Assembly: GCA_021839985.1 (NCBI GenBank)
Contig: JAKBZO010000005.1
Location: 1-40,427 of the forward strand
Direction: 5' to 3'
From: a bacterium
GTDB taxonomy: Bacteria; Patescibacteriota; Minisyncoccia; Phycocordibacterales; SBAW01
Length of the DNA: 40,427 nt
Position 1 is the first letter of the stretch. Every line of letters starts with the position of its first letter. Made by a program: the position numbers and the translations under genes. The notes beneath the pieces are model-generated. The model was not told the origin of the DNA. It made no database searches and worked only from the letters and a program-made list of their open reading frames with translations. This document shows, in pieces, positions 208 through 26,267 of this stretch.

Positions 208-280
208 GCGGGCATAGCTCAGTTGGTAGAGCGCTCGACTGATACTCGAAAGGTCCTAGGTTCGACTCCTAGTGCCCGCA
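208..280 (+). tRNA. tRNA-Ile (anticodon GAT)
   Basis: A full cloverleaf can be folded by eye. The acceptor is 208-214/273-279, the D stem 217-220/229-232, the anticodon stem 234-238/246-250 with loop 239-245 and GAT at 241-243, and the T stem 256-260/268-272 with loop TTCGACT. The discriminator is A280. The first anticodon-stem pair (C234:A250) is mismatched. CCA is not encoded, because CAA follows, so it must be added by a nucleotidyltransferase. The 3' half is repeated in inverted form just downstream. Confidence 0.93.
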
Positions 281-501
281 CAAATAACGAACGCAGTGAG
301 TGTATTTTGCGCGGCAAGTACTGCGCCTGCGCACAGTACGGCTAGGAGTCGAAAGTGGTTGAGCATATCGCCGCGAGTCCGAGGTTCTGCGAGGACGAAG
401 CGAGATGCGAAACCCGTACTGCGGCTGTAAGCCGAGACTCGGAGTAGCCCGCACACAGAAAAGTTCCCCCTCGCTCGTTTTCAAGTCAAAGCCTTAGACG
501 T
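281..501 (+). repeat. Post-tRNA region with inverted and direct partial copies of the tRNA-Ile 3' end
   Basis: No credible gene lies here. Bases 342-353 are the exact reverse complement of the T loop and T-stem strand at 261-272. Bases 303-316 are a near reverse complement of the acceptor strand plus trailer at 273-286. Between these two blocks sits a separate hairpin with GTACTG/CAGTAC arms at 318-339. A short, degenerate direct copy of the tRNA end (TAG, GCCCGCACA) recurs at about 445-455. Short reading frames over this stretch have no homology that I recognise and look like artefacts. Confidence 0.65.
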
Positions 502-1549: not shown

Positions 1550-1948
1550 ATTCGTTATGGTTGCCGAGCTCGCGAATATGCAGACCATTTCCTCAGAGGT
1601 TATTTTGACGGCGATGGTTCAAGTTATTCGTACAACGATCCGACGTATCCGAACAGCTTTCGATTCTATATCTCTTTCACTTCTGCGAGCCCAGCATTCT
1701 TTAAGTGGCTGAGAGGGAAACTTTTTGATGTCGCGGGGGTTAAAGGATACATAAGCCGCAATCGCAATAATCCATACCTGCAGCTGAAGTACGCAAAGAA
1801 GGAGTCGGTGCTCATCAGTGAGAAAATGTATTACAAGGGGTCGGTACCTTACTTGCGCCGCAAGCATTTGAAAATTAAGCGATCTTTGTGCATAATCAAC
1901 GGACGCCGGAGTGGTGAAATTGGTAGACACGCTACGTTCAGGTCGTAG
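1550..1948 (+). pseudogene. LAGLIDADG homing endonuclease, C-terminal remnant
   Basis: Frame 1550-1948 is open from a TGA at 1547 and has no ATG before the conserved motif. It reads YADHFLRGYFDGDGSSY, a clear second LAGLIDADG helix with its active-site Asp. Downstream come an FRFYISFTSASPAFFKWL strand-helix region and a MYYKGSVPYLRRK tail, both typical of LAGLIDADG_3 proteins. Recognisable homology stops near 1895, and the frame then runs into tRNA-Leu. The N-terminal half and a start codon are missing, so this is a decayed gene. LAGLIDADG enzymes are spread by introns and inteins, and in CPR bacteria they are common in rRNA introns. The fragment directly abuts a tRNA, which suggests a former intron or insertion. 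Confidence 0.8.
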
Positions 1949-1988
1949 TGCTCGCAAGGGCATGGAGGTTCAAGTCCTCTCTCCGGCA
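1905..1988 (+). tRNA. tRNA-Leu (anticodon CAG)
   Basis: This is a class II tRNA. The acceptor pairs 1905-1911 with 1981-1987, the anticodon loop TTCAGGT carries CAG, and there is a long variable arm (TGCTCGCAAGGGCA). The T stem is 1964-1968/1976-1980 with loop TTCAAGT, and the discriminator is A1988. CCA is not encoded. No promoter is evident directly upstream, because the endonuclease remnant occupies that space. Confidence 0.95.
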
Positions 1989-2056
1989 CAAAACAAAGAA
2001 GCCAAAGCGAATAGCTTTGGCGACTATTGTTTTGTAGTATGGAGAAAGGACTTGAA
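1988..2056 (+). repeat. Inverted copy of the tRNA-Leu 3' end, plus nested hairpin
   Basis: Bases 2041-2056 pair with 1969-1984 of the tRNA at 15 of 16 positions. Bases 2027-2035 pair perfectly with the trailer 1988-1996. Inside is an 8-bp hairpin (2001-2008/2014-2021). The whole forms one long foldback whose 5' strand is the T arm and acceptor strand of the tRNA. The inner hairpin could act as a terminator, but that alone does not need the outer match to the tRNA. Confidence 0.75.
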
Positions 2057-2100
2057 AGCGAGCGCGGGCATCCGATCGGCAGGGCGGGTCGCGCGAGCAG

Positions 2101-2148
2101 GGTCAAGAAATTTTTACGAGCGACCGGCAAGTAAAAATTTTCTTGACC
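2101..2148. repeat. 17-bp hairpin upstream of murI
   Basis: Arms 2101-2117 and 2131-2148 (GGTCAAGAAA...TTTCTTGACC) are complementary with one bulged T and a 13-nt loop. It ends 10 bp before the murI ATG. No T-tract follows on the plus strand, so an operator or mRNA structure is as likely as a terminator. Confidence 0.5.
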
Positions 2149-2158
2149 GAGCCCTCTC

Positions 2159-3001
2159 ATGCCCACAGAAATGAAAACTAGACGAACACAGTCGATCGGG
2201 GTATTTGACTCGGGGTTCGGCGGGTTGTCGGTCCTCAAGGAGATCGTGAAGGCATTGCCCGAGTATGACTACGTGTATCTCGGCGACAATGCGCGTGCGC
2301 CGTACGGCTCGCGCTCAAAGGAGGTTGTGTATGAATTCACGAAGCAGGCGGTCGACTTCTTGTTCACGCACGGCTGCGACCTGGTTGTGCTCGCGTGCAA
2401 CACCGCGTCTGCCGAGGCGCTGCGCAAGATCCAGCGCGAGTATCTGCCGAAGAAATACGGACCGCATAAGCGCGTGCTCGGCGTGATCGTGCCAGCGATC
2501 GAAGAGACGGTCGTGCGGACGACGAACGGACGCGTCGGCGTCATTGCGACGCAAGGCACGGTCCGCTCCGGCGCTTTTTCTCGTGAGTTGAATAAGGCGT
2601 CTCCCGGCATACAAGTATTTGAACAAGCGTGTCCGCTTTTGGCGCCGCTGGTGGAAGCGGGCGAACATCGCTCAAAGACCGCCGATCTGATGCTCGCACG
2701 ATATCTCACGCCGCTTCTGCGCAAGCGCATCGACACGCTCGTGCTCGGCTGCACGCATTATGGCCATCTTGAGGGAAAGATCAGGAAGATCGTCGGCCAG
2801 AATGTCGCGATCATCTCAGAAGGAAAGATCGTCGCGAAAAAACTGCAGCAGTATCTCGTGCGGCATTCCGAGCTTGAAGGCGCGCTCGCGCGCAGATCGA
2901 AACTCAAGTTCTATTCCACTGACATCGGCGAGCGCTTCGACGACCTTGGCACGATATTCTTCGGCGCTCCGGTCGTTTCAAAAAAGGCAAAATTGGGCTA
3001 G
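2159..3001 (+). CDS. murI: Glutamate racemase
   Basis: This 280-residue enzyme interconverts L- and D-glutamate, supplying D-Glu for peptidoglycan in the cytoplasm. Both catalytic cysteines are visible in family context: C80 in VVLACNTASA and C198 in LVLGCTHYGHL. The N-terminal IGVFDSGFGGLSVL (D17) and the LGDNARAPYG signature are also present. The length matches the family. The start could be 2159 or the ATG at 2171; no good Shine-Dalgarno site separates them. The stop codon TAG is part of the likely -10 of murD, ten bases before the next start. Placement before murD is logical, because MurD consumes D-Glu. Confidence 0.95.
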   Translation: MPTEMKTRRTQSIGVFDSGFGGLSVLKEIVKALPEYDYVYLGDNARAPYGSRSKEVVYEFTKQAVDFLFTHGCDLVVLACNTASAEALRKIQREYLPKKYGPHKRVLGVIVPAIEETVVRTTNGRVGVIATQGTVRSGAFSRELNKASPGIQVFEQACPLLAPLVEAGEHRSKTADLMLARYLTPLLRKRIDTLVLGCTHYGHLEGKIRKIVGQNVAIISEGKIVAKKLQQYLVRHSELEGALARRSKLKFYSTDIGERFDDLGTIFFGAPVVSKKAKLG

Positions 3002-18337: not shown

Positions 18338-18368
18338 CCTTGCGCCCGAAAAGTATTAGGAGGATGTG

Positions 18369-21300
18369 ATGGTTGCCGATTATACTAAGTGGCATAGGGA
18401 TTGGTCGCCAGGCGACCGGTCTGTTTTTTGTATGCAAAAAATTAGCGCCCCATTCAGAGAGCCGCAAGGATACACTTCTTCTCGCGACGCGAGTAGAAAA
18501 TTCGATCTATCAAACGACTATATATCTCGTCTATGTCGTTTTGGAAAAGTCGAAGGCGTGCTTATCGGAAAAGTATGGTACGTCAACGACGAGTCACTAG
18601 CAGCTTTCATTGCTCATACTGTTTCGCGGCGCGCAGAATATGCGAAGTCTCTTGCAGAGCAGCGTAAAAAAGAGTATGACGAAAACCTCAGTCGTGTGAC
18701 GAACCAGGTAGAAGCTGCCGCACAAAACGCACAAGAGAAGATAGATAATGGATCGCGTGCGCCGTTGTCTGGCCGAAAGGGACCGATGAAGATCGAAGCT
18801 GTTGTCGGGCGCTCTGCGTCAGTGGCAGGTCGGTTCAGTGCCGCTCTGGCGACTGCTTTTGTGAGCATTGCGCTCGTGGGAGTGGCATATGCGATGCCGT
18901 TCATAGCGACGCCAGCGATATCTTCGCTTGCAAGTGCGGTGCAAGGCGCTCAGTCCGCGTTCTTTTCACAGCCGCAACTAACTGATACTGGCGTATTCAG
19001 CCGAGCACTCTCTCATCTTGAAGAGTTCGGCGCAAGCGTCATCTCTTCACTTATCCGTTCGGTCGCGTCGACGACTTCTTCGCCGCAGATCGTCTATATT
19101 GCGACTTCGACGAGCGCTGTTGCTGGTGGGGTAAGCGGCAATGCGGCGCCTGCGGTAGTGTACTTGCCGTCGCCGACCATTCAAAGAACTACTATAGTGC
19201 AGGGAGGCGTAACGCAAGAAGATCTTACCGCGCAAATGCAGGCGCTTAAGAACTCAGTCCTCTCGCAGATCTTCAGTGCGGGTCCAACGCCAGGATCAGG
19301 AGGTCTCATCAATATGATCGCGGCAAGTCAGCGAGTCAACACGATTTCCAACGCCACTATCTCTGGCGCGTCTATTTCCGGTTCGAGTGTCAGTGGTGGC
19401 TCAGGCTCATTCACTTCACTTGATACCAGCGGAGTCTTGTCCGTCACGGGGACAGGAACCTCGACGATCACAAGCGATCTCAATGTGGGAAGCGGCGTGT
19501 TGTACGTCGATTCGATCAATGGCCGAGTTGGTATTGGCACGACCACTCCGTCCCAGACTTTCACGGTGAGCGGGGATGGTAATTTTACCGGCGTTCTTAC
19601 TGCAGCAAACCTCACCGCATCAGGCGGACTTACCCTTACCGGTCTCGCAAAGAATTCGGTGCTTGCATCCGATGCAACGGGCGCTATCACAGCAACGAGC
19701 ACGCCTTATGTCGCAGCTATCGTTGCGACATCCACATCGGCAACATCAACTCTCGCGGGCGGTTTCGCTGTTGGCGGCGATCAACTTCTCGTCCAACAAG
19801 CGACGGGATATATTGGCATCGGCACGACCTCACCATTCGCACTGCTCTCAGTGAACGGCAGCGGCTTCTTCGGCGGCAGCATGACCGCCACCGACCTCAC
19901 CGCGACCGGCACGGTCACTGCGGTGAACATCCTCGCGACCGGTTCGACCACGCTGCAGAACTTCACGGGCATGAATGCTACGACAACGAACGCCACCACC
20001 ACCAACTTCAACGCCACCGACCTTGTCGCCAGTGCAGCCACTTCCACTTCGCTCTATGCCTCGGTCGCGCACTTTGCCTCAAGCGTCTTCGATTCCTTCA
20101 CCGCCACCCTCGCCACTATCGCCGGTCTCAACGTCACGAACTCCACCACGACCAATGCGACGTCGACCAATTCATACAGCAGCACGCTCGAAGCAGGCGC
20201 TGCATTATTCGGAGGGACCGCAACCTCTTCATTCGCTTCAAACGGTGCGCTGACGCTCTCGCAAGCACTTGCCGAGACGTCTGGCGGTACCGGTCAAAAT
20301 TCGTACACGCTTGGAGATATGCTCTATGGCTCTGGCACCAACACGCTCGCTAAACTGGCAGGCAACACGTCGACCGTACAAAAATTCCTCTCGATGACCG
20401 GCGACGGCACCAATGCCGGTGCGCCATCGTGGCAGGTGTTGCCGGTGTCTGGCACGTTGTCCTACTATTTCTATGGCCTCCAGGCAACCTCTTCTCCGGC
20501 ATATCTTTTGATGCAGTCGGCCGCGACCTCTTCAGAGGTCATAAATACCTATTCGGGCCTTACATCAACAACGCTTATTCAGAATTGGATAACGCCGACT
20601 GGCTTCCCAGCACTTTCATTCATCCCAGCAGGCGAGTATGAATTCCATATACACGCCTCTCAGACAGCCGGTACGGCGGGCACCTTGTATGCCGAATTCT
20701 GGGAAGTAGATTCAACTGGCAAGGACATCGCGAAGATCGGCACATCAGAATCTTCATCGGCGCTTCCGGGCACTGAAACCGAGTACCGGCTGTTCTTCTC
20801 GAATCCCAACACCTACACCATGGCATCGACTGCCTCGCGTATCGTCGCGAAGGTCTACTTCACCTATGTGGGCGGGACCGACACCGTGAATCTCTACTTG
20901 GGCGGTACCGCTGATTCGCATATCACGCTTCCGAGCAACACGGTCGACGCAACGAACTTCGTGCCCTATGTCGGTGCGACAAAGAATCTCGATCTCGGCT
21001 TGTTCAATGCGTCGTCGACAGAGTTCACCACCTCCGGCACGACCTATCTCGCGACAGCGGGCGGCAACGTCGGAGTGGGCACGACTTCTCCATGGCGCTC
21101 TCTCTCAGTGAGTGGTTCGTCGGATCTTGGCGTGAACGCGCTTGCCGGTTCCTTTACCGCTACCTCGACGGCAACATCGACCTTTGCCGGTCCGATCTCA
21201 TCTCCATCAGGTAACCTCATCATCAGCTCTTTCGATGGTGGCAACAAACTCCTCCTCAATCCATACGGCAATGCGGTCGGTATCAACACACTCAACCCGA

Positions 21301-24300
21301 CTTACCAGCTCGACGTGAACGGTACGGGGCGATTTGGTGGTACGCTCAATTTGGCAACGGCACTTTCTTGTACGGGTTCGCAAGCACTTCAGACCGATGC
21401 TTCCGGCAATGTGTCCTGTGGAAATCTTTCTGGCGTCTCCACTATCGCGGGCGCAGCCGGTTGGGTGACGAATAATGTTGGACAGATCACGCTCGCGACC
21501 ACGACCGATCAAGTCGGCATCGGCGCAACGACGACGCCCTATGCGAAGCTCTCGGTTATATCGGGGAGTACAGGCACTACGACACTCGCTCTCGTGCCGT
21601 CTCCGTCGGCAACCGCTCATATCTTTGACATCTACGACAACTTCGGCAACCTCGCATCAGTATTTACCGCGGACGGACACTTCGGCATCGGTACGACTTC
21701 GCCAATGTCGCAGCTCGCGATCAGTAGTTCTTTGACCGGCCCGTCCGACGTGTCGCTCACGTTCGCCGACACATACAGTGGCGTTAATGGTTACGTTGGT
21801 GTCGACAATGGTGACTCGGCGATCGATCTCGGTTCATACACGGCAAGTGACGTACGCCTTGAGACGCATGGTACTGAACGTCTGCGTGTGCTTGGCACCA
21901 ACGGTTATATCGGCATTGCCTCAACATCGCCGTGGGGTCTGCTTTCGATCAACGCGAACGGCAATATCACCCCGGGTACGCCCGAATTCGTCGTCGGCTC
22001 ATCAACGGTGACCGACTTTATCGTAAGTAATGGCGGCAACGTCGGAGTGGGCACGACCTCGCCCTTCGCACTGCTCTCAGTGAACGGTAGCGGCTTCTTC
22101 GGCGGCAGCGTGACCGCGACCAACCTCACCGCCACCGGCACGGTCACTGCGGTGAGCATCCTCGCGACCGGTTCGACCACGCTGCAGAACTTCACCGGCG
22201 TGAATGCAACGACAACGAACGCCACCACCACCAATGCATACGAGTCGAACCTGGTAGCAGTGAACGCAACATCGACCAACCTTTATGCCTCGGTCGCGCA
22301 CTTTGCCTCAAGCATCTTCGATTCCTTCACCGCCACCCTTGCTACCATCACCGGACTTAACGTCACGAACTCCACCACGACGAATGCGACGTCGACCAAT
22401 GCATACAGCAGCACGCTCGCAGCAGGCACTGCATCATTCGGAGGGACCGCAACCTCTTCATTCGCTTCAAACGGTGCGCTCACGCTGGCAGGCCCATTGA
22501 ATGGCCCGCTTCAGGCGAACAACGGACTCGTCTCAGCGACAACGTCAGTGGGCGTTCTGTATGGCGGCACGGGCCTTACCGTTGCGCCGACCTACGGCCA
22601 ACTTCTCGTCGGCAATGCCACCGGCGGCTACGCGCTCACCGCGACATCAAGCCTCGGCCTCCCGACCTTCGGCACGCTCGCTGCCACCTATCCGCTTCAA
22701 TATGACGGCACGGGCACCTTCTCGCTTGCTTTCGGCACCACGACCTCCAACGCCTGGGCAGGCACGCAGACCTTCACCAATGCACCGACACTCAGCAACT
22801 TCACCGGCCTCGTCGCGGCAAACGGGGGAGTGACCTATGCGACCGCGACCACCACGCTCGTCGCCGGTACGAACCTCACCTTCTCAGGCGGCACCCCGGT
22901 CGTTCTCGGCTCATCGCCGATCACGCTCAACGTAGCCAGCTCGGGCAATGTCGCCACCTCGTCGGCCGAGACCGCCGGACAGCTTCCGTACTGGACCACT
23001 ACATCGGGAACTCCTGCTAAGCTCGGCAGCATCGCCACTTCCTCGCTCACGCTCGGCCTCGGTCTGAATTACTCGGGCACACTCGGTTCGCTTGTGGGCG
23101 GCACCTCCGGCAACTTCACGCTCGCGACCTCCTCACTCTTCACGGGAGCGCTCGGTCAGGCTGCATACTTCAACGGCGCGAACGCTCTCACGGCTACCTC
23201 CTCGCTCTTCTTTGCAACGAGTGGCAACGTCGGCATCGGGACGACCACCCCCGGCTCGCTCTTTGCAATACAAGGCATCGCAAACTTCACCACGGCGACG
23301 AGTACCCTCTATTCTTCAGGCGGCATCAACCTCACGAGCGGCTGCTTCGCGATTGCGGGCGTCTGTATCACTGGCACTGGCGGGGGAGGCGGCACGACGC
23401 TCACCGGCCTGCAGGTAAATGATGCGACCAACACCGGCGCCACCCTTCCCAGCAACCTCTACACCTCCCAAACCGCCGTCATCGGCAACACCATCTACCT
23501 CTTCGGCGGGTACAACGGCAGCGCCGTCACCAACGTCATATATAGCGCCCCCGTCTCTAACCCCACCAGCTGGACCAACACCGGCGCCACCCTCCCCGGC
23601 AACCTCGACAGCTCCCAAATCGCCGTCATCGGCAACACCATCTACCTCTTCGGCGGGTACAACGGCAGCGCCACCACCAACGTCATATATAGCGCCCCCG
23701 TCTCTAACCCCACCAGCTGGACCAACACCGGCGCCACCCTCCCCGGCAACCTCGACAGCTCCCAAATCGCCGTCATCGGCAACACCATCTACCTATTCGG
23801 CGGGAGCAACGGCAGCGCCGCCACCAACGTCATATATAGCGCCCCCATCTACTCCAGCAACCCTTCAAACCTCGCCTACAACAACTCGTGGAAAGTCGAT
23901 GGCAATGGCGTGAACTCTGGCGGCGTGAATGTCGGCACTCAGGGTCAGCTCCCGTTCTACAATGCCGCCGGCACTACGCTCTCCGCCACCTCCTCGATCT
24001 TCCTCGCGCAGAGCGGCTACGTCGGCATCGGCACGACCACGCCGAACTGGCTCCTGCAAGTCGCTGGCACACGCCCATCGCTCGCACTTACGGACACCTC
24101 AGCGGGTACGAATCTGAAGCACTGGCTCTTCTCCTCAATGGGAGGAAACCTCTACATCGGCACTTCGACCGATGCGTATGCCACCAGCACGCCATCGGCG
24201 CTCACGATATTGAACAACGGCAACGTCGGCATCGGCACGGCGAGTCCGACACAGAAGCTTGAGGTATCCAGCGTAGGTGGCAGTTATCCACAGGTGAAAA

Positions 24301-26267
24301 TCGACAACACTAGCGCCGGTGGCTCGGCGGGTATGCGGCTCTCCGGTAACAACGGCAGCTCGGTATGGGATGTCGCCTCAAACTGGTCCGGCTCGAACAA
24401 CGAGTTTACCGTCCTCTACAATTCCACGACGAGCGTGATCACCGCATTAACAAATGGCAACGTCGGCATCGGCACGACAGGACCGCTGACGAAGCTTGAC
24501 GTGAATGTTCCAGGTACTACGACGCTCGCGAACATTCAACAGAACTTGAGTAGCAATGGTATCGCGTTGAACGGAGGAGCCTATGGAGCCGGAAATTATT
24601 TGCCGGGTCTTATCTGGTATACCGGCGACCAGGTGAAGCCCAAGGCGGGAGTATGGGCTCAAGAGACCGCGAATGGTTCGTACCTCGACTTCGGTACGTC
24701 GAATAATTATGGTATTGGAATCACTAATACGGCACTGGCCATAGATTATGACGGCAATGTCGGTATCGGGACGACGAGTCCTGTCGCCCCGCTCTCTGTA
24801 GTGGCCGTGTCGTCGGCAACTTCGACGATCACTGTCGGTCGGAGCGAGGTAGGTAGCGAGTCGCAGATCCTCATGTACGGCGGCCTTGGCGGGCATAATT
24901 ATTCGATTACAAACAACAATTTCGTCGACGGGCTCGAGTTTACGCCTTCGACGGCTATAGCCGGCACGGCATTTACCACACCGACACTCGAACTCCTCGG
25001 CAACGGCAACGTCGGCATCGGGACGACGAGTCCGGCGACCTTGCTCGAAGCGGGCGGTTCGACGGCGAACGTGACCTTCGACGGGTATAAGAACTGCACC
25101 GGATTCACGAGCAACGCCAACGGCCTCCTCGCCTGCACCGCATCCGACGAACGCTTGAAGCAAGACATCACGCCGCTTGATAGCGTGGCTACGCTTGCGG
25201 GCATCGATGCACTCAACCCGGTCTCGTTCTATTGGGATCCAGAAACGCAGCGCGGGCCGAGAGAGCAGTTCGGCTTCATCGCCCAGCAAGTGCAGCAGGT
25301 GTTCCCGAACCTGGTCGCCACGAGCTCGCCGACGAGCCTTACGCCTGACGGCACGCTCTCGCTTGACTACAACGGCCTCATCGCGCCGGCAGTCCTTGCG
25401 ATCCAGGAGCTCCACCTCGATCTCAATGCCATTGCGTCGGCGGCCGCATCGTCGACGCCGGAGTCTCAGAGCTTCGCATCGTCGTTCTTCAGCAACCTTT
25501 TCGCGAAACTCGTGCAGTGGTTCGCGGATGCGACGAACGGCATCGGCAAGTTCTTTGCCGGTGAGGTGCACACGAAGGAGATGTGCGTGGCGAAGTCCGA
25601 CGGTACGGAAGCCTGCCTCAATGGCGATGAACTTGCAGCGCTCATGGCGGGCCAGACGACCTCATCGTCAACCACTTCTTCGACCTCAACTTCGACCTCA
25701 ACTTCGACAACGACCTCGACAACGACCTCATCGACGAGCACGTCGACGCCGCCGGTCATTTCAGTGAATGGTGCGGATCCGGCGGAGATTACGGTCGGTG
25801 ACAGCTATGTCGATCTTGGCGCGACGATCACCGGTCCGTCAAGCGACCTCAATCTCGGCATCTCTGCGATCGTCAACGGCGGCGCGACGACCACGGTCGA
25901 TCAGATTCACATCGACACTTCCACCGCAGGAACGTCGACGATCGAGTATGTCGTTGTCGACCAAAACGGACTCATGGGAACAGCGACGCGCACGGTGGTC
26001 GTGAATCCGGTAACGCCCGCGCCGGCACCGACCACATATTCGATCATCGCATCGGTCTCGGGTACTGGTATCGGCGCTATCTCGCCGACCGGCACGACGA
26101 CGGTGACGAGCGGCAACACACAGCAATACACCGTCACGCCGGACGCATCGTCGACCATCAGCGCGCTCATCGTTGACGGCGCATCGGTGGCGACCAGTAC
26201 GACCTACACCTTCTCTAACGTAACCGCGAACCACACGATCGACGCCGAGTTCACCCCGCTGCCATAA
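18369..26267 (+). CDS. Giant HTH-transmembrane-tail-fibre surface protein with S74 domain
   Basis: AGGAGG (18358-18363) sits 5 nt before the ATG, giving 2632 residues. Order: cytoplasmic MerR-like HTH (about 35-82), charged helix (85-140), one membrane span (about 158-180), then an external stalk. The stalk has about 14 copies of a VGIGTTSP..LLSVNG-type motif common in phage tail and CPR surface proteins, and many NATTTNAT-like segments. Three 49-residue kelch-like repeats with IYLFGG lie near residues 1690-1830. The S74 endosialidase-chaperone domain starts at S2259-D2260 (SDERLKQDI, then FGFIAQQVQQVFPNLV and LDYNGLIAP). This domain normally trimerises the stalk and cuts itself before the Ser-Asp. 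Unusually, about 290 residues follow it: a two-Cys segment, a Ser/Thr linker, a DUF5011/Ig-like domain and a bacterial-repeat (Flg_new_2-like) domain. A role in host attachment is inference. Confidence 0.85.
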   Translation: MVADYTKWHRDWSPGDRSVFCMQKISAPFREPQGYTSSRDASRKFDLSNDYISRLCRFGKVEGVLIGKVWYVNDESLAAFIAHTVSRRAEYAKSLAEQRKKEYDENLSRVTNQVEAAAQNAQEKIDNGSRAPLSGRKGPMKIEAVVGRSASVAGRFSAALATAFVSIALVGVAYAMPFIATPAISSLASAVQGAQSAFFSQPQLTDTGVFSRALSHLEEFGASVISSLIRSVASTTSSPQIVYIATSTSAVAGGVSGNAAPAVVYLPSPTIQRTTIVQGGVTQEDLTAQMQALKNSVLSQIFSAGPTPGSGGLINMIAASQRVNTISNATISGASISGSSVSGGSGSFTSLDTSGVLSVTGTGTSTITSDLNVGSGVLYVDSINGRVGIGTTTPSQTFTVSGDGNFTGVLTAANLTASGGLTLTGLAKNSVLASDATGAITATSTPYVAAIVATSTSATSTLAGGFAVGGDQLLVQQATGYIGIGTTSPFALLSVNGSGFFGGSMTATDLTATGTVTAVNILATGSTTLQNFTGMNATTTNATTTNFNATDLVASAATSTSLYASVAHFASSVFDSFTATLATIAGLNVTNSTTTNATSTNSYSSTLEAGAALFGGTATSSFASNGALTLSQALAETSGGTGQNSYTLGDMLYGSGTNTLAKLAGNTSTVQKFLSMTGDGTNAGAPSWQVLPVSGTLSYYFYGLQATSSPAYLLMQSAATSSEVINTYSGLTSTTLIQNWITPTGFPALSFIPAGEYEFHIHASQTAGTAGTLYAEFWEVDSTGKDIAKIGTSESSSALPGTETEYRLFFSNPNTYTMASTASRIVAKVYFTYVGGTDTVNLYLGGTADSHITLPSNTVDATNFVPYVGATKNLDLGLFNASSTEFTTSGTTYLATAGGNVGVGTTSPWRSLSVSGSSDLGVNALAGSFTATSTATSTFAGPISSPSGNLIISSFDGGNKLLLNPYGNAVGINTLNPTYQLDVNGTGRFGGTLNLATALSCTGSQALQTDASGNVSCGNLSGVSTIAGAAGWVTNNVGQITLATTTDQVGIGATTTPYAKLSVISGSTGTTTLALVPSPSATAHIFDIYDNFGNLASVFTADGHFGIGTTSPMSQLAISSSLTGPSDVSLTFADTYSGVNGYVGVDNGDSAIDLGSYTASDVRLETHGTERLRVLGTNGYIGIASTSPWGLLSINANGNITPGTPEFVVGSSTVTDFIVSNGGNVGVGTTSPFALLSVNGSGFFGGSVTATNLTATGTVTAVSILATGSTTLQNFTGVNATTTNATTTNAYESNLVAVNATSTNLYASVAHFASSIFDSFTATLATITGLNVTNSTTTNATSTNAYSSTLAAGTASFGGTATSSFASNGALTLAGPLNGPLQANNGLVSATTSVGVLYGGTGLTVAPTYGQLLVGNATGGYALTATSSLGLPTFGTLAATYPLQYDGTGTFSLAFGTTTSNAWAGTQTFTNAPTLSNFTGLVAANGGVTYATATTTLVAGTNLTFSGGTPVVLGSSPITLNVASSGNVATSSAETAGQLPYWTTTSGTPAKLGSIATSSLTLGLGLNYSGTLGSLVGGTSGNFTLATSSLFTGALGQAAYFNGANALTATSSLFFATSGNVGIGTTTPGSLFAIQGIANFTTATSTLYSSGGINLTSGCFAIAGVCITGTGGGGGTTLTGLQVNDATNTGATLPSNLYTSQTAVIGNTIYLFGGYNGSAVTNVIYSAPVSNPTSWTNTGATLPGNLDSSQIAVIGNTIYLFGGYNGSATTNVIYSAPVSNPTSWTNTGATLPGNLDSSQIAVIGNTIYLFGGSNGSAATNVIYSAPIYSSNPSNLAYNNSWKVDGNGVNSGGVNVGTQGQLPFYNAAGTTLSATSSIFLAQSGYVGIGTTTPNWLLQVAGTRPSLALTDTSAGTNLKHWLFSSMGGNLYIGTSTDAYATSTPSALTILNNGNVGIGTASPTQKLEVSSVGGSYPQVKIDNTSAGGSAGMRLSGNNGSSVWDVASNWSGSNNEFTVLYNSTTSVITALTNGNVGIGTTGPLTKLDVNVPGTTTLANIQQNLSSNGIALNGGAYGAGNYLPGLIWYTGDQVKPKAGVWAQETANGSYLDFGTSNNYGIGITNTALAIDYDGNVGIGTTSPVAPLSVVAVSSATSTITVGRSEVGSESQILMYGGLGGHNYSITNNNFVDGLEFTPSTAIAGTAFTTPTLELLGNGNVGIGTTSPATLLEAGGSTANVTFDGYKNCTGFTSNANGLLACTASDERLKQDITPLDSVATLAGIDALNPVSFYWDPETQRGPREQFGFIAQQVQQVFPNLVATSSPTSLTPDGTLSLDYNGLIAPAVLAIQELHLDLNAIASAAASSTPESQSFASSFFSNLFAKLVQWFADATNGIGKFFAGEVHTKEMCVAKSDGTEACLNGDELAALMAGQTTSSSTTSSTSTSTSTSTTTSTTTSSTSTSTPPVISVNGADPAEITVGDSYVDLGATITGPSSDLNLGISAIVNGGATTTVDQIHIDTSTAGTSTIEYVVVDQNGLMGTATRTVVVNPVTPAPAPTTYSIIASVSGTGIGAISPTGTTTVTSGNTQQYTVTPDASSTISALIVDGASVATSTTYTFSNVTANHTIDAEFTPLP
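19821..20257 (+). repeat. Long direct repeat within the giant gene, copy A
   Basis: This stretch is nearly identical to 22050-22486 at a constant offset of 2229 bp (743 codons). Only the central part (about 20004-20055) diverges clearly. Confidence 0.85.
22050..22486 (+). repeat. Long direct repeat within the giant gene, copy B
   Basis: Copy B of the 437-bp in-frame duplication. There are no length differences from copy A across the aligned stretch, so recombination would remove or add exactly 743 codons. Confidence 0.85.
23434..23850 (+). repeat. Three 147-bp tandem kelch-like repeats, C-rich
   Basis: Units start at 23434, 23581 and 23728 and are almost identical. Each encodes 49 residues with AVIGNTIYLFGG, NGSA and NVIYSAPVSNPTSW. 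Counting unit 2 by hand gives 66 C and 27 G in 147 bases, a strong C bias on the coding strand that differs from the sequence further out. The bias and near-identity suggest recent amplification or import. Confidence 0.85.
25665..25745 (+). repeat. Ser/Thr-linker minisatellite
   Basis: Twelve-base units CGACCTCAACTT (25681 and 25693) and CGACAACGACCT (25705 and 25717) are tandem, flanked by degenerate versions. They encode a Ser/Thr-only linker of about 28 residues whose length could vary by slippage without breaking the frame. Confidence 0.75.

Follow-up and report, generated by a model that had tools for sequence, protein, structure and literature searches.

Repeat elements behind two tRNA genes of the window

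The window analysed here, 40,427 nt in length, is contig C5 of a 736-kb patescibacterial genome (G000) that is 94.6% complete and has 47 tRNA genes. Towards its start lie the genes for tRNA-Ile(GAT) and tRNA-Leu(CAG), each followed on the same strand by one or two hairpins, copies of the tRNA 3' end in both orientations and a structured core (Table 1). Behind tRNA-Ile the order is a hairpin in the trailer (HP1), an inverted copy (IC) of the tRNA 3' end with a second hairpin (HP2) in its middle, the core and a degenerate direct copy (DC). A sequence-only reading of this stretch had proposed such an inverted copy in two blocks, split by a hairpin and followed by a degenerate direct copy near position 445, and each of these parts was borne out. 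The block ctaggagtcgaa (342-353) is the exact reverse complement of ttcgactcctag (261-272), the bases at 303-316 do resemble the reverse complement of 273-286, the arms GTACTG and CAGTAC (318-323 and 334-339) form the hairpin that splits the IC, and the direct copy could be placed at 436-453 (GACTCGGAGTAGCCCGCA against GACTCCTAGTGCCCGCA). When the 20-nt 3' end of tRNA-Ile was compared with the next 155 nt, the score was reached by 1 of 5000 dinucleotide shuffles (p=0.0002).

Table 1. Positions of the two tRNA-associated elements in the window (HP, hairpin; IC, inverted copy; DC, direct copy).
Feature	Position	Strand	Basis
tRNA-Ile(GAT), host gene of element 1	208..280	+	ARAGORN; Rfam RF00005, 72.6 bits
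Copy 1 of tRNA-Ile 3' end (tRNA positions 54-73: T loop, T stem, acceptor, discriminator)	261..280	+	sequence; own-versus-swapped tests
HP1, trailer fold-back hairpin directly 3' of tRNA-Ile, imperfect here	281..306	+	sequence; RNA fold
IC, degenerate: acceptor 3' strand and first trailer bases	303..316	+	sequence
HP2, inserted at T-stem/acceptor boundary of IC	317..341	+	sequence; HP2 counts across elements
IC of T arm, exact 12/12	342..353	+	sequence; shuffle test
Structured core, type C (GGTTGAGCATATCGC...GCGAGATGCGAAACC...CTGTAAGCC)	354..435	+	same core at other tRNAs of this genome and of G002/G037; fold
Degenerate DC of tRNA-Ile 3' end	436..453	+	sequence comparison
tRNA-Leu(CAG), host gene of element 2	1905..1988	+	ARAGORN; Rfam
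HP1 of tRNA-Leu element, type A motif CAAAACAAAG...GCGACTATTGTTTTGTAG	1989..2037	+	sequence
IC of tRNA-Leu 3' end; T-arm part 2044-2056, 12/13 bases; acceptor part degenerate; no HP2	2038..2056	+	
Structured core, type A (GCGAGCGCGGGCATCC...GGGTCGCGCGAGCAGGG...)	2057..2147	+	resemblance to other type A cores
Degenerate DC of tRNA-Leu 3' end	2148..2165	+	score 13, weak

The same architecture had also been claimed behind a second, unrelated tRNA, presumably tRNA-Leu; it is present there, but without the splitting hairpin. The inverted match of tRNA-Leu gave the same dinucleotide-shuffle value (p=0.0002), and its core belongs to a type that occurs with 78-93% identity at Leu, Ala, Val, Gly, Ser, Lys and Arg tRNAs. 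The tRNA-Leu element is to be seen as another type of the element found behind tRNA-Ile.

A number of reading frames were recorded in the surroundings of these and other tRNA genes. Between the two loci, a LAGLIDADG_3 homing-endonuclease-like reading frame (26 bits, E=1.1e-5) lies at 1583-1774 on the forward strand, and other LAGLIDADG frames of G000 occur near tRNA-Leu(caa) (C29:8015) and tRNA-Leu(gag)/His (C25:23416-23919). GIY-YIG/T5orf172-like frames begin, as judged by eye, just 3' of tRNA-Met(cat) on contig C18 of G000, of tRNA-Gln(ctg) in G003 (L124) and of tRNA-Trp in G001 (L132). Further along the window (18366-26267, forward strand) a protein of 2633 amino acids is encoded, possessing Kelch repeats, an Ig-like domain and a Peptidase_S74 (endosialidase chaperone) domain.

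Elements across the source genome

Reading the 3' flank of every tRNA gene of G000 identified both an IC and a DC of the gene's own 3' end at 19 of the 47. The elements are roughly 150-250 nt long and follow the layout tRNA copy 1, HP1, IC, structured core, DC. Truncated remnants were seen by eye at further tRNAs, for example Ser(gga), Arg(gcg), Lys(ttt) and Arg(cct). Four core types could be told apart: type A (GCGAGCGCGGGCACC) and type D (GAGCCGCCGCGAAGCC), both without HP2, type B (GCCGGAGCAT...AGCGAGGC) with an HP2 of 25 nt, and type C (GGTTGAGCATATCGC), to which the tRNA-Ile element of the window belongs, with an HP2 of 22-25 nt. Among the 74 elements with a readable acceptor block, the boundary between T stem and acceptor is occupied by 24-27 nt (HP2) in 51 and by 0-1 nt in 18.

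Arms fitted to the host tRNA

Covariation between the T arms and their downstream copies had been named in the sequence-only reading as the test of its claim, and it was found. At T-arm positions 59-64 the IC agrees with its own tRNA in 94.0% of cases, as opposed to 57.6% after permutation of the tRNAs (maximum 61.9% in 1000), the first figure being inflated in that the 108 elements, from several dozen genomes, were picked partly for an inverted match. In the element counts, one element is common to Pro(cgg) and Pro(ggg) of G001. A further comparison used 30 pairs of near-identical cores (identity of at least 0.80) located at tRNAs of different families, with some elements present in more than one pair; at the positions where the two tRNAs differ, the IC matched the local tRNA in 94.0% and the partner in 4.8%. 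Selection for an inverted match explains this contrast less easily than it does the 108-element figure. Such pairs include Arg(tct) and Ser(tga) of G059 (cores 97% identical), His of G000 and Arg(tct) of G002 (97%), and Lys(ttt) of G002 and Val(tac) of G000 (93%). On the aligned sequences, these pairs demonstrate near-identical cores behind unrelated tRNAs, with the arms of each fitted to its own tRNA. The earlier argument that the recurrence of the layout spoke against chance was upheld, since chance or T-loop conservation alone is excluded by the own-versus-swapped and permutation tests.

The IC matches best beside the core, its agreement falling to a minimum of 0.67 at the discriminator, and the DC agrees with the tRNA at positions 70-73, where the IC does not. 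Divergence from the tRNA is about equal for the two copies and has arisen in each independently of the other, with no sign of compensating changes in the IC:DC pairs of the 108-element comparison. By these comparisons, both IC and DC are specific to the host tRNA. The nearest neighbour of a core was found in the same genome in 14 of 78 cases, against 5.2 expected and a maximum of 15 in 1000 shuffles, and this excess of similarity within genomes over that between genomes is suggestive only.

The core as a structured RNA

To describe the core, 108 sequences were aligned by fitting them to a model, the structure itself being taken from a MAFFT/RNAalifold run, in which 9 of 11 pairs were changed on both sides. 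Across the 108 distinct sequences the pairs are formed in 96.9% of cells, and the covariation score of 0.598 compares with 0.227 for shuffled alignments and at most 0.123 when the partners were slid. One of the pairs is G-U in 81 of 108 sequences, which favours an RNA of the tRNA strand. As judged from the alignment, these data demonstrate that the core is a covarying structure of a tRNA-sense RNA.

Distribution

Covariance models A1 and R1, which were built on type B cores only, had matches in 110 of 148 genomes of the order (Parcubacteria/Paceibacterota), representing 90 of 119 genera, with sparser matches beyond it (76 of 286 genomes in a sample of the class and 29 of 287 in a sample of the phylum). 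Exact pattern matches in named genomes came nearly all from Parcubacteria-type candidate phyla or unnamed Patescibacteria bins, the groups being Yonath-, Nomura-, Lloyd-, Kaiser-, Campbell-, Taylor- and Zambryskibacteria. The search pattern sits inside the core and is blind to tRNAs, and a same-strand tRNA or tmRNA gene ended at most 450 nt upstream of 66 of 82 matches; in 8 the gene was downstream and in 4 on the other strand, and at least two of the remaining matches resemble plain chance matches. The host genes are tRNAs of most amino acids and tmRNA (L147, L199). Outside the class the same grammar was observed; at L357 the elements of tRNA-Arg form a perfect tandem array, and at L350 and L358 the direct repeats extend past the CCA into the trailer. 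In viral contigs a single pattern match was obtained, which is not the element, and phage-borne copies were discounted.

Some loci depart from the usual form. A few elements lie behind protein genes, apparently rplL (L190) and rpsI (L201, L236), and by eye their IC copies the gene's own last codons. Short variants, in which the IC comprises the trailer and acceptor end only and the T arm is not covered, occur at L160, L207, L221, L223, L224, L227 and L228. A different-looking repeat with a full second T arm is found at tRNA-Gln(ctg) of G001 (L133), where the CCA is present in the downstream copy only.

Rfam searches returned only the tRNAs above the gathering threshold in the window, only an unrelated weak match at E of at most 10 for positions 280-470, and only tRNA or tmRNA above gathering at 20 further element loci. 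Group I and II introns and known ribozymes were likewise discarded as candidates, no Rfam family model of these matching the elements. A search of open-licence papers found no description of such elements.

Turnover between related genomes

Two congeners of the source genome, G002 and G003, allowed orthologous tRNA genes to be compared. Ser(tga) and Gly(tcc) carry an element in G000 and are empty in G002, and Arg(cct) is filled in G002, the G000 tRNA being directly joined to the same flank that follows the G002 DC. At Lys(ctt) the two genomes have the same diverged DC and flank, with a core of type B in G000 and of type C in G002; HP1 and HP2 also differ between them, and the arms and DC stay. 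Tandem stacks were found at Tyr, Asp and Val, in which the intact copy adjoins the tRNA and mostly truncated ones lie behind. Among the tRNAs listed for G003 (42 found) no element was seen. These orthologous loci demonstrate the gain or loss of elements, their tandem stacking and the substitution of one type for another. The DC of Arg(tct) in G000 equals the 3' end of the G002 tRNA, and at Lys(ttt) of G002, as at Gln(ctg) of G001, the downstream copy has a CCA and copy 1 is without it; these cases suggest that the DC often keeps an older 3' end.

Nature and origin of the elements

The elements are probably members of one non-coding mobile family that uses the 3' ends of tRNA and tmRNA genes, and rarely those of other genes, as insertion sites, duplicates the target and has its arms remade at each site. 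We are evenly divided on the wider proposal that they represent an undescribed, protein-less class of mobile element, based on a structured RNA and spreading among the tRNA and tmRNA genes of Patescibacteria by duplication of the 3' end together with a new target-matching inverted arm, of which E. coli would have an isolated relative in its tyrT repeats. The similar and independent divergence of IC and DC is what would be expected if both arose on insertion and drifted thereafter, and not what a selected IC:DC stem would show; for this reason a selfish element is favoured.

A functional 3' RNA switch or processing signal appears unlikely. In such a switch the core would choose between two partners for the IC, namely the tRNA, which is blocked by the pairing, and the DC, which leaves the tRNA free, and both pairings would be under selection. 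The layout is indeed riboswitch-like, with a closing IC:DC stem that excludes IC:tRNA pairing; the minimum-energy fold of 208-460 pairs the IC with tRNA-Ile, whereas the stretch from IC to DC of the tRNA-Phe element, taken alone, folds far better than its shuffles (z -7.3); and the orthologous Val(cac) and Glu(ctc) elements keep their HP1 and HP2 pairs through paired changes, in a consensus fold that itself favours kept pairs. A switch does not readily account for a DC that equals the tRNA at positions 70-73 where the IC does not, nor for the independent divergence of the two copies and hence the missing compensation. Presence, type and tandem number moreover vary at orthologous tRNAs within one genus, G003 having none among its listed tRNAs, and cores that are 97% identical have wholly different arms, a change too fast for stepwise co-evolution. 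A plain riboswitch, with a DC that existed only to pair with the IC, was rejected as insufficient, given that the DC follows the tRNA where the IC does not. More doubtful still is the idea that the arms are old residents, long fixed at each tRNA, and that only the cores are swapped by homologous recombination. The shared part of the elements is indeed the core and the local part the arms, yet the filled and empty pairs and the insertions beside older truncated copies point to the gain of whole elements, and the Lys(ctt) locus, where both hairpins and the core differ around constant arms and DC, needs more than core conversion. Core movement could nonetheless partly be gene conversion between resident elements.

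It seems highly improbable that the elements are tRNA-primed retroelements, the IC being a primer-binding site copied from the tRNA primer in each round and insertion taking place by homology at the matching tRNA gene. Copying from a primer would account for the retailored arms, and the complementarity of the IC to the tRNA 3' end extends through the T loop, resembling that of the primer-binding sites generally known from retroviruses. Nevertheless, no reverse transcriptase (PF00078) was found in G000, with its 19 elements, or in G003 (G001 has two and G002 one), and the elements are without coding capacity. The least credible reading is that of ordinary attachment-site scars, namely remnants of islands or phages left by tyrosine recombinases, with the hairpins as terminators. 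Integration of that kind is generally known to leave the tRNA 3' end directly repeated, but in the elements read there are only hairpins, the IC and a conserved RNA structure of roughly 80-150 nt between the repeats, with no integrase or cargo. Such scars have neither an inverted target copy nor a covarying core, and the shared covarying core speaks against them.

For a mobile element of the kind preferred here, the direct repeats would be the target duplication, the downstream one often representing the older tRNA 3' end, and the tRNA would stay intact on insertion. With every insertion the target would serve as template for a new inverted arm. Most probably, the tRNA 3' end would be copied in fold-back fashion at the trailer hairpin, and the template would switch to the core at TTCGAA, a near-palindromic motif of the T loop. 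This is the simplest scheme that we can offer, and it leaves HP2 unexplained. It predicts the best match near the hairpin, and the observation that the IC matches best beside the core counts against it. The end of the direct repeat and the apex of HP1 fit at Ala(ggc) of G000 (24 against 23) and, by eye, at L350; most other elements gave no fit or were not scorable. The element RNA is predicted to be co-transcribed with the tRNA. Pairing of IC with DC would then recreate an acceptor/T-arm helix, and the position of HP2, in place of the D and anticodon arms of a tRNA, suggests a tRNA-like IC:DC fold for processing, a shape that could be excised by RNase P and RNase Z; this fold is unsupported by covariation.

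The mobilising enzyme would act in trans. A Y1 transposase is present in 90 of 148 genomes and is associated with the elements (odds ratio 3.8, p=9e-4, with no correction for phylogeny or genome size), with 34 element-bearing genomes having none, and the association is a loose one. LAGLIDADG proteins were set aside as movers on account of their weak association (p=0.055).

The mobile-element reading predicts a co-transcribed tRNA-like RNA as well as new insertions with perfectly fitted arms. Elements of this kind may affect the making of tRNA and tmRNA 3' ends in Patescibacteria.

Comparison with known systems

Islands and phages integrated at tRNA genes are generally known to restore and duplicate the tRNA 3' end, as the elements do, but the latter have a target-derived inverted copy and no integrase or coding cargo between the repeats. 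The primer-binding sites of LTR retroelements are, like the IC, complementary to a tRNA 3' end, and are re-copied from the tRNA; the elements differ in adjoining the tRNA gene whose end they copy and in the absence of a reverse transcriptase from G000. REPINs and REP-associated tyrosine transposases (RAYTs) comprise short, non-coding, palindromic elements that multiply in bacterial genomes and are tied to a transposase acting in trans (PMC3116915, PMC2817692), and the present elements resemble them in being short and non-coding and, probably, in being able to multiply. They are distinguished from REPINs by their location at tRNA 3' ends, by a multi-helix core and by arms that follow the host tRNA and are not target-independent. 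To our knowledge, REPs do not carry copies of their targets. TIGR arrays (TIGR-Tas), also found in Patescibacteria, are built of 8-12-nt repeats that alternate with 9-nt spacers, lie next to a Nop-domain protein and similarly have guide-like segments split by a repeat (PMC12045711). The published description sets them apart from the elements, which form a single tRNA-matching unit with a larger core.

The closest resemblance is to the 178-bp repeats of E. coli tyrT/tyrV with their rtT (RttR) RNA, whose unit, directly 3' of a tRNA, likewise has a direct copy of the tRNA 3' end on either side. A 19-nt direct copy (AATCCTTCCCCCACCACCA) lies 159 nt downstream, and in E. coli K-12 (L365, 1286900-1288200) the tRNA-Tyr 3' end was found to have a 10-nt inverted copy (GGGGAAGGAT, p=0.004) between the direct copies, where in the fold it pairs with the direct copy to form a closing stem. 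In this comparison, made at one E. coli tRNA only, HP2 is absent, and no homology of the cores was found, model R1 scoring 2.6 bits (E=0.82) on the E. coli region. Rfam, with its RtT model, gave no match to the new elements. The rtT repeats would appear to be either distant relatives or convergent, with the outer layout in common and the core not. If they prove homologous, the claim of a wholly new class would weaken.

The class is rated as new on account of its inverted arm, as no other element is known to us whose inverted arm stems from the target and is rebuilt site by site. The elements stand behind about 40% of the tRNA genes of a streamlined genome and extend through much of an order, yet are without an Rfam family, and through them the tyrT repeats of E. 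coli can be placed in a comparative context. Known small mobile elements have fixed ends; those described here seem to rewrite their arms for each tRNA, and information would hence flow from the target to the element.
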